A stretch of 64,000 nt of DNA from Gammaproteobacteria bacterium (lineage in GTDB: Bacteria > Pseudomonadota > Gammaproteobacteria > S012-40), in the NCBI GenBank assembly GCA_029881255.1, contig JAOUMY010000013.1, forward strand, positions 62,001-126,000. Reading direction: 5' to 3'. Of the stretch, positions 20,600 through 25,874 are shown in pieces. A model generated the notes under the pieces. That model had not been told where the DNA came from. It did no database searches and saw only the letters and a program-made list of their open reading frames with translations. Both the position numbers and the translations under genes were made by a program. Every line of letters begins with the position of its first letter. Within the stretch, counting starts at the first letter, position 1.

Positions 20600-22249
20600 T
20601 TATTTTGCGACAGTGACGGTAACAATATCGCCGGGAAAAATCAGATCGGGATTATTAATACCGCTGGCACGCGCCAGTTCGGGATATCGATAGGGATCTT
20701 CGAGTACTGTCTCGGCGATTCGCCACAAGGTATCACCGCTTTTGACAACATGACGCGTACTAACCGCATTTGTCCCGGCGTGATTGGCCTTTTCCCCTAA
20801 CAATACCTTCATAGGTGGCTTCTGTGTATTTTTCGCATTGGAGCTTGCGGGTCTATCCACGGTAATACTGATTGTGGGCGTATCGATTTCCACCACTCGT
20901 TGAATTTCAGACGCACCAACGACGCCCTTATTCGACGACAATTGCGCTTGAGTTTGCACACTAGTAGTCGTAACCATATCGGCCGAATGCTCTTGTGCCT
21001 GTTTCGTTAACAGCGAGGGCAAGGCCGGAATTTTCTCAGCGTAAAAATACAGCGCACCAATAACAACGACCAGACTCACACCACCAATAAGAAAAGGAAT
21101 CCTGGAGCGCGGCTTGAATATATTTCGGTGACTGCGTCTCAGGCGAAACTCTTTGAAGGTGATAGCCTGCTCGGTTTCTAACTCATCTATTCCTACGACG
21201 GAAAATCGCGGACGATCTACGTCCTCAAAATTGTCAATTAGCTCTGCCGTTTTTTCTGTTGCCTCAGGAATCTCAGCCTGAATAAAGACCGGTACTTCGT
21301 CAATCTCACTATCCGTTGATGGAGAGGTGTCTGCATCAGAAGACAAAGGATTGTGATCCTCCGCCCCTCTCTTGGCATCTGCGACTACATGATGATGAAC
21401 AATATTTGTAAAGGGAACCTGAGACTCAACTTTTTCTTCGGCGATAGGTGGCTCAAGATGCTGTTCGTTCTCCAGTATTTCTTCAACAGCCTTCGCCTCT
21501 TCAAATGCAGCTGCATTATCAGTTTCGTTCTGTAGTTCTTCTATCTCGCCTGTCGCTTCATCGCCCGCAGATGTTATAGCAGATTCTTCTATTTCTAGTG
21601 GCGGTGTAGCATCTGCCATTTCTTCAAGGGTATCGAAATTACCGTCTTTGAATTGATTTTCTTCGTTCCTGTCGGCTGTTTTGACTCCCTCAGCTATCGC
21701 ACAATCTTCTGACTGCTGCTCAGTCGTGTCGCCGATTTTACCCAGCGCTTGTTGCCAGGCTTCACTGGAAAATGTTTCCACCTGATTTATCAGCGTCGAA
21801 AATGATACCTGTATGACAAGACCATGTTTTTCGAGATGCTGCACTTCAATTCCCGGCACGGAAAACATCGCATGCCGCGGTGTAAAACTTTCCCTGTCCA
21901 CGATGTCGATGACCCTATCCACCTTGAATCCGAGCGCGTTTCCAGTATTTGTCGTGACAACCAGGGCACTACGTGTGTTCGTCTCAGAATCCTTTAGTCG
22001 CAGAATTTTTTTAAGATTAATTGCCGTCGCTGCGTGCTCACGAAATGAAAATCCGCCGTCAACAAAAAAAGGCATCACCGGCAATTCGGTAATCGCTTGG
22101 GGCTCTATGATAGACTCCACTTCAGCAATATCCACGCTGAACAGAATGTTTTCGAGCGAGAACAGCAGGCAGGTATTCAAGTCCTGTTTTTGTAATGGCA
22201 GCATATAAATATGTTTATCAGGGATTTTCCAAGAAGATCTCAATACCAT
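20600..22249 (-). CDS. CheW-like domain / membrane anchor / LysM fusion protein
   Basis: An unusual 549-residue protein. Residues about 26-155 are a CheW-like fold (CLLFSLENILFSVDIAEVE, PVMPFFVDGGFSFRE, LGFKVDRVIDIVD). An acidic low-complexity linker follows (about 170-360, rich in E, D, A and T). A basic stretch (FRLRRSHRNIFKPRSR) precedes one transmembrane helix at about 384-403, and a polar periplasmic linker leads to a C-terminal LysM (500-549: HVVKSGDTLWRIAETV, GINNPDLIFPGD). The positive-inside rule puts CheW in the cytoplasm and LysM on peptidoglycan. Neither possible ATG (22249 or 22204) has a good ribosome site; the second would start just ahead of the CheW fold. No chemotaxis genes are nearby. 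A FimV-like role in polar or wall-linked assembly is an inference only. Confidence 0.85.
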   Translation of the reverse strand: MVLRSSWKIPDKHIYMLPLQKQDLNTCLLFSLENILFSVDIAEVESIIEPQAITELPVMPFFVDGGFSFREHAATAINLKKILRLKDSETNTRSALVVTTNTGNALGFKVDRVIDIVDRESFTPRHAMFSVPGIEVQHLEKHGLVIQVSFSTLINQVETFSSEAWQQALGKIGDTTEQQSEDCAIAEGVKTADRNEENQFKDGNFDTLEEMADATPPLEIEESAITSAGDEATGEIEELQNETDNAAAFEEAKAVEEILENEQHLEPPIAEEKVESQVPFTNIVHHHVVADAKRGAEDHNPLSSDADTSPSTDSEIDEVPVFIQAEIPEATEKTAELIDNFEDVDRPRFSVVGIDELETEQAITFKEFRLRRSHRNIFKPRSRIPFLIGGVSLVVVIGALYFYAEKIPALPSLLTKQAQEHSADMVTTTSVQTQAQLSSNKGVVGASEIQRVVEIDTPTISITVDRPASSNAKNTQKPPMKVLLGEKANHAGTNAVSTRHVVKSGDTLWRIAETVLEDPYRYPELARASGINNPDLIFPGDIVTVTVAK

Positions 22250-23942: not shown

Positions 23943-25874
23943 ATGGAAAAAACTGCACCAAGATTCCGGTCAATCAAAACCGGTTACCTCCTATTGGTAA
24001 TCGGTATGGTGCTTATTTCCAGTTTGATCACGACGTGGATCGAGTATGACGAACACAAGATTCAAATACATCAAAATTTTCACAAAAAAATAAAGAGCCT
24101 GGCCTTTCTTTCGGCTCAAGCATCTTCGTCCGCGTTTTTATCCGGTAATCGATCATCTCTGCACAATGCATTGGTAACGCTTTCTCACGAGAACGAAGTC
24201 ATCGCAAGCGCTATCATGGACACTGAAGAACATCTGCTTGCATCAATTATTCGCCCGGAGTTTCGTTCCGGAGACGTTAAGGAAGCGGACGACATCCAAA
24301 GAATAAAAAGTTTGTCTTTTGCAGAATTTTCCAAGCACCCAATATTTAGTCATAACCAGCCTGTTGGCTATGTGCTGGTTGTAATAGATAACCGGCTTTT
24401 TAACTACCTATCGAAAAAGCACTTCGCGGCACACTTACTAGAAAGACTAGGCACAGGTGCAATTCTTGCCGCTATTCTGGTTTGGTTTTTTAATCGCCGA
24501 GTAATTCTTCCTCTTAAAAAACTGAAAATCCACATAACGGAAATTCAACACGGACAACTTGGCGCAACACTAAATTACGCACGAAATGATGAAATTGAGC
24601 AACTCGGAGTCGCAATAAACGAATTGTCGCTTTCGTTAAAAACGAATGAGACCGAAAAAGAATATATGCAGTCAAAACTGCTCGAGGGCAATGAAGACTT
24701 GAAGCGCGCCACAAAGGCAAAAAATCAATTTCTCGCTAATATGAGCCATGAAATCATGTCGCCGCTGACTTCTATTATTGGCTACATAGACCACATAACC
24801 ATGGAAGACCTACCCAAAAATCAACAAGACTCATTTAAGCGTGCGCTATTGCACAATAGCAAACATCTGCAAACTCTCATCAGCAACACCCTGGAATTTT
24901 CAAAAATTGAATCCGGTGAAATCGACATTCACAAAACGCGCTTCAACCTATTTACCTTCGTAGACGAATTGTTTTCCGCCTATACCCAAAGTGCACAAGA
25001 AAAAGGACTAGAGCTGAAATGCCATTACTCCTATCCGCTACCAGCCTTTATTACCACTGACTACATGCGCCTGAAACAGATCCTTTTCAATTTATTTAAT
25101 AACGCTCTCAAATTTACTGAAAAGGGTCATGTCCGAGTAAATATTTATTATCAAGCCGGCGGCAAAGGCAATGTTGTATTTGACATCCAGGACACTGGGA
25201 TCGGACTTGAAATCGGCCAAATCAATCAGCTATTCAGCAATTTTACCCAGGCGGAAATTACACCACATTCCAGCCCATCCGGTGCGGGCCTGGGACTGGT
25301 GATATCACGCATGCTTGCCACACTGCTCGGAGGAGACATCAACGTAATCAGCTCACCGGGCAAGGGTAGCCAGTTTAGCTGCTCTATTTATCCAGGCGTA
25401 ATAGCGGACGAAGAACTTGTACAGTCAGAACACCAGCAAGACAACATCGTGGCGAAAATCAGCGCCAAGAGCTCAAAAATAGATCGCATGAATCTCAATC
25501 TGAAATTACATGTGCTTGTAATTGATGATTCACCAGACATACACATTTTGCTTGGTTCTTATCTCGCCAAGATGGGATGCACTGTAGATGCCGCGGATAC
25601 CGGCTATGAAGGTTTACGCATGATAGAAAACAAGCAATATGACGTGATCATCGTCGACAAACAAATGCCCGGCATGGACGGCATAGAAACGACGCGAAAA
25701 TTAAGACAAGCTGGATTCAAGAATCCCATCATTGCGATGACCGCCGCCACCCTCAACAAAGACGAATCGAAATTCAAGGCAGCGGGATGTGACGCCTATT
25801 TGAATAAACCCATCAATGTATCGCTGCTTTCAGAGACCTTGTCTCGCTGGTCTAAATCCGACAAATCGGTCTAA
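23943..25874 (+). CDS. Hybrid sensor histidine kinase
   Basis: 643-residue membrane kinase. TM1 is near 13-31, a periplasmic sensor loop spans about 32-165 and TM2 is near 170-184, followed by HAMP. HisKA carries H269 in NMSHEIMSPL (the usual RTPL is MSPL here). HATPase motifs are NLFNNALKF (N box), DTGIGL (G1) and GAGLGL (G2). The C-terminal receiver domain (about 522-640) has the phospho-acceptor D572 in VDKQMPGMDG and K622. No Hpt or output gene is adjacent. This is the BarA-like arrangement, so signalling probably goes on through a separate Hpt protein. Confidence 0.93.
   Translation: MEKTAPRFRSIKTGYLLLVIGMVLISSLITTWIEYDEHKIQIHQNFHKKIKSLAFLSAQASSSAFLSGNRSSLHNALVTLSHENEVIASAIMDTEEHLLASIIRPEFRSGDVKEADDIQRIKSLSFAEFSKHPIFSHNQPVGYVLVVIDNRLFNYLSKKHFAAHLLERLGTGAILAAILVWFFNRRVILPLKKLKIHITEIQHGQLGATLNYARNDEIEQLGVAINELSLSLKTNETEKEYMQSKLLEGNEDLKRATKAKNQFLANMSHEIMSPLTSIIGYIDHITMEDLPKNQQDSFKRALLHNSKHLQTLISNTLEFSKIESGEIDIHKTRFNLFTFVDELFSAYTQSAQEKGLELKCHYSYPLPAFITTDYMRLKQILFNLFNNALKFTEKGHVRVNIYYQAGGKGNVVFDIQDTGIGLEIGQINQLFSNFTQAEITPHSSPSGAGLGLVISRMLATLLGGDINVISSPGKGSQFSCSIYPGVIADEELVQSEHQQDNIVAKISAKSSKIDRMNLNLKLHVLVIDDSPDIHILLGSYLAKMGCTVDAADTGYEGLRMIENKQYDVIIVDKQMPGMDGIETTRKLRQAGFKNPIIAMTAATLNKDESKFKAAGCDAYLNKPINVSLLSETLSRWSKSDKSV

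Follow-up and report, generated by a model that had tools for sequence, protein, structure and literature searches.

The gene at positions 20600..22249 on the minus strand of the window (the whole stretch of 64,000 nucleotides of DNA that was analysed) encodes a protein of 549 aa in which an N-terminal CheW domain is joined, through an acidic linker and a single transmembrane helix, to a C-terminal LysM domain, and this layout recurs in at least 28 genomes. We lean, with slightly better than even confidence, towards reading the fusion as a bitopic scaffold that pins a chemosensory array, or its CheA, to the cell wall. The initial annotation knew of no described system with this architecture, and we likewise found no description of CheW and LysM in one protein in the literature searched, with subscription papers and domain-architecture databases lying outside the scope of the search. 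This tentatively suggests that the combination of a CheW-domain fusion with a wall-anchored hub is new here, each element being already known separately. The placement of arrays is known mainly via multi-protein chains (ParP-ParC-HubP, FimL-FimV). If the fusion is an anchor, one conserved protein could do the whole placement job, which would be a simple and testable answer for some gammaproteobacteria, and it would also provide a ready-made tool for fixing CheA complexes on the cell wall.

Comparison with homologues placed their start in the region of M16 (position 22204), from which a protein of 534 aa would be translated; residues 1–15 of the window ORF may be untranslated, with the true start near M16. 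Both of the domains named in the initial annotation scored above the curated Pfam cut-offs. The CheW profile (PF01584) matched residues 27–118 with 53.4 bits (E = 2.7e-14; cut-off 23.5), and the match ended at profile position 93 of 138. When the N-terminus was modelled with AlphaFold from 20 aligned CheW domains (17 from the fusion family and 3 ordinary CheWs from the same genome), a two-lobed CheW fold was obtained with a pLDDT of 85.4 and a pTM of 0.81. All 18 Foldseek matches of this CheW-domain model at E < 1e-3 were to CheW or CheA-P5, the top match being the CheW of the CheA P4-P5:CheW complex (2ch4), and VIA-align gave Z values of 10.0–15.8 against CheW/CheA-P5 and of at most 4.0 against any other fold. 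Because the AlphaFold model supplies the part beyond the Pfam match, the CheW domain of the fusion (residues ~27–160, 21770..22171, minus strand) is, as modelled, complete despite the partial profile match, in agreement with the CheW-like fold first proposed for the N-terminus.

In Thermotoga CheW, L14, I30, and V33 are receptor-tip groove positions (PMC5706961). The corresponding residues were hydrophobic in 33, 33, and 32 of the 33 fusions, respectively, and the window protein has L, I, V, and I at Thermotoga L14, V27, I30, and V33. The position of E. coli R62, which we take to be important for CheW function, is occupied by R in 14 of the 17 members of the window's family, including the window protein itself, and in 2 of 16 fusions elsewhere. 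As this R is rare in the fusions of other families, their CheA or receptor contacts may be weaker. The window CheW domain was also among the more diverged in the CheW-domain tree (branch length 1.6). The scarcity of R62 outside the family would fit another reading, in which CheW now binds a non-array partner and the fusion is a general wall-anchored hub, and FimV and HubP do bind their clients with non-CheW domains. We regard this as a clearly lesser possibility, and the almost invariant retention of the receptor-groove hydrophobics speaks against it.

The linker that follows the CheW domain (residues ~165–370, 21140..21757, minus strand) is predicted to be cytoplasmic, has a low-complexity composition, and is acidic, as had been noted, with 27% D+E and 7% K+R. 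Across the fusions, its length varies from ~30 to 600 aa, and its acidity is not kept in the fusions of other families. A basic stretch (residues 372–383) and the single transmembrane helix (residues 384–402, hydropathy 2.33) lie at 21044..21136 on the minus strand, with five K/R in the 12 residues before the helix and one in the 12 residues after it. Because the basic stretch precedes the only helix, the positive-inside rule predicts a cytoplasmic N-terminus carrying CheW and a periplasmic LysM, so the order of basic stretch and helix and the orientation across the membrane that were originally suggested both stand. On the predicted periplasmic side, a short beta-hairpin (residues ~449–467, 20849..20905, minus strand; AlphaFold pLDDT ~65–80) is conserved in the alignment of paralogue group A, to which the window protein belongs. 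The LysM domain itself (residues 500–545, 20615..20752, minus strand) was matched by PF01476 with 36.5 bits (E = 4.8e-9; cut-off 20.9), and its predicted secondary structure follows the order beta-alpha-alpha-beta. The AlphaFold model of the LysM half was weak overall, and a Foldseek search with this low-confidence model returned no strong match, only weak ones, several of which contained LysM. Apart from LysM and the short hairpin, no periplasmic sensor domain is conserved.

These features bear on whether the protein could instead be a sensor of wall state or stress, in which the occupancy of LysM, or tension on it, would alter the entry of CheW into the array and so tune a CheA (e.g., ChpA of Pil-Chp). 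CheW is an input-side component, wall contact would be reportable through a flexible bitopic link, and many of the fusion genomes contain ChpA-like CheA frames of ~1,900–2,400 aa, with a Pil-Chp cluster in the window's own genome. However, a single helix combined with a disordered linker of such variable length is poorly suited to conformational signalling, and so few conserved periplasmic parts leave little for sensing, which makes a sensor role rather unlikely in our judgment. A direct wall input, in which LysM reads the state of the peptidoglycan and the attached CheW relays it to CheA without a chemoreceptor, appears quite improbable.

The same domain order was sought in other genomes and found to recur across families. 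In the window's own taxonomic family, 10 of 12 relatives carry a CheW-linker-TM-LysM protein, usually as two paralogues, with lengths of 324 to 990 residues; this count includes one genome (G012) only by a weak CheW match, and 9 are complete without it. The eleventh relative (G005) has only a CheW fragment at a contig end, and in one of the ten (G009), two contig ends each hold a piece of the group A copy. Among 369 sampled genomes of the class, the fusion turned up in nine further gammaproteobacterial families. Chimeric assembly was rejected as the source of the fusion, given that ~30 loci show the layout. Two metagenome-assembled genomes (MAGs) labelled Thermodesulfobacteriota also carry a CheW-TM-LysM fusion; a search of one of them together with 38 other genomes, its relatives among them, showed no full fusion in any of the 38, and since these MAGs are isolated cases, transfer or mis-binning is possible. 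When genome contigs were probed with the window protein alone, no related loci were found, whereas the family alignment succeeded as a query; the failure of the single-protein query was probably due to peptides chosen from variable parts of the protein. In one single-contig genome (L184:8062-9469, G136), the CheW and LysM parts lie in different overlapping frames, which represents either a frameshifted copy or a sequence error.

The fusions of the window's family form two paralogue groups, A and B, the latter being a clade with a support of 100/97 in the CheW-domain tree, and the window's genome has one copy of each. Deep support in this tree was weak as to a single versus multiple origin of the fusion. 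In a sister-species pair from one genus (L041 and L042), protein identity was 75% in the CheW part and 77% in the LysM part, compared with 32% in the cytoplasmic linker, the fastest-diverging part; the ratio for LysM was 0.12, and the synonymous sites of CheW were saturated and gave no ratio. Judging from these sequence comparisons, both end domains are under constraint and the linker is free to diverge. That the CheW and LysM ends have both been kept from one family to another supports the view that they are genuinely linked.

The fusion gene of the window stands alone between genes for a glucan phosphorylase and an alpha/beta hydrolase, which bears out the initial remark that no chemotaxis genes are next to it, and inspection of the ORFs found no adjoining ParA-like gene. 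Among the loci examined, no chemotaxis gene adjoined a CheW-LysM gene, the neighbours being housekeeping or unrelated genes. Group A fusion genes have variable neighbours. Conserved neighbours were seen at group B loci (L039, L044, L045, L048, L051, L060, L061, and L063), namely a NUDIX gene on the same strand and divergent genes for a CHASE2-adenylate/guanylate cyclase, an SH3 protein, and an M48 peptidase; a link of the group B fusion to cyclase signalling is possible. In other families, the fusion often lies between rsmA-like and apaG/apaH-like genes, a housekeeping locus (L070, L179, L182, L184, and L191), or beside a ttcA-like gene, these gene names being readings of the sequences, not profile matches. 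Such housekeeping neighbourhoods, or the group B locus, favour the idea of a general hub for a non-array partner. Promoter and terminator scans gave results at chance level. Three genes away from the fusion, the window encodes a hybrid histidine kinase (HAMP, HisKA, HATPase, and receiver; 23943-25874).

Reading of the ORFs in the window's genome gave five candidate chemosensory clusters, including one of the Pil-Chp type and another in which a ParA-like gene adjoins a CheW-like one. CheA, recognised by its dimerisation domain, was found in 12 of 12 distant fusion genomes tested, CheA-sized CheW frames were present in the genomes of the window's family, and a fusion-bearing genome devoid of CheA was sought among the genomes checked and not found. 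The best context evidence came from family f101, in which a sister protein (L187:6213-8534 in G112 and L186:1385-3616 in G327) has an acidic N-terminal region, a single helix, and a C-terminal LysM closely similar to that of the window protein, but lacks a CheW domain. The gene for this sister protein is divergent from a chemosensory operon (CheW, MCP, CheB, and response regulator, with CheA further on), suggesting a role of the TM-LysM module in chemosensory systems; for the lone window gene, this evidence is indirect. Both the chemosensory operon adjoining the sister gene and the presence of CheA or CheA-sized CheW frames in every fusion genome tested argue against a general hub with non-array clients.

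In the preferred scaffold, for which we infer partner binding, wall binding, and location, the N-terminal CheW would act as an accessory coupling protein within the core complex, alongside the receptor tips and a CheA-type kinase, and the disordered linker and membrane helix would connect it to the periplasmic LysM. LysM would grip the peptidoglycan and so tether the CheA, or some portion of the array, to one place on the wall, for which a pole or division site is plausible, and a single chain would thereby perform the job of the ParP-ParC-HubP or FimL-FimV chains. Counted for the scaffold were the CheW fold, the conservation of the layout, the higher identity of both ends than of the linker, the groove hydrophobics, the R at the R62 position in most members of the window's family, the co-presence of CheA, the sister gene of family f101, and the published parallels in HubP, ParP, and P. 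putida FimV. Counted against it were the lack of adjoining che genes, the loss of R62 outside the family, the diverged CheW domain of the window protein, the unconserved acidity of the linker, and the presence of FimV as well; because FimV is found in nearly all fusion genomes, a wall-anchored hub already exists there.

The parallel with FimV drawn in the initial annotation was apt. HubP and FimV, like the fusion, are bitopic, with a periplasmic LysM and a large, acidic, disordered cytoplasmic part (PMC12918733), and both are known for positioning chemotaxis arrays or components of Pil-Chp. In HubP, polar targeting requires the LysM and can be achieved by it alone, and chemotaxis arrays are positioned by HubP via ParC/ParP (PMC8789113); P. 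putida FimV binds peptidoglycan through its LysM and positions the chemotaxis system (PMC12918733). With LysM, one TM helix, and a large acidic cytoplasmic part in common (PMC12918733), the fusion might be thought a divergent FimV/HubP paralogue that gained a CheW domain. However, its order is reversed, with the LysM C-terminal and the N-terminus inside, and it has an added CheW domain and no TPR/FimV C-terminal domain. No FimV or TPR model was found in the window protein by the Pfam and NCBIfam scans, and the FimV_core matches of the fusion genomes fell outside the fusion genes, FimV being a separate gene in 20 of the 21 genomes checked. Identity with FimV was therefore rejected, and descent from a FimV/HubP paralogue is largely refuted and hardly tenable. 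Because FimV is encoded separately, the fusion may add to, or specialise, its wall-anchored role.

ParP, which acts with ParC, resembles the fusion in that its CheW-like (CheW/P5-like) AIF domain takes a place in the core unit of the chemosensory system and connects that unit with an anchor at the pole (PMC5706961). ParP reaches the pole via ParC and HubP, whereas the fusion has its anchor (TM and LysM) in its own chain; moreover, ParP has a C-terminal AIF domain, a ParC-binding N-terminus, and a gene adjoining parC, in contrast to the N-terminal CheW and TM-LysM tail of the fusion. Between them, the LysM of HubP, the CheW-like domain of ParP, and P. putida FimV illustrate the two halves of the anchor idea in different proteins. 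CheW and CheV share the CheW fold with the fusion, and CheV is a precedent for CheW in fusions. CheW is a lone soluble domain and CheV adds a C-terminal receiver, which the fusion lacks (the window protein had no Response_reg match in the Pfam scan), and neither is anchored in the membrane or the wall as the helix and LysM of the fusion would allow. In the Pil-Chp systems of Pseudomonas and Acinetobacter, a FimV hub, with FimL, keeps chemosensory components in place (PMC12632253, PMC9596432); a CheW domain is absent from this hub, and contact is made via FimL and PilG. In one fusion genome (L040:5773-7359, G006), the gene immediately downstream of the fusion encodes 528 residues and has a FimV_core match.
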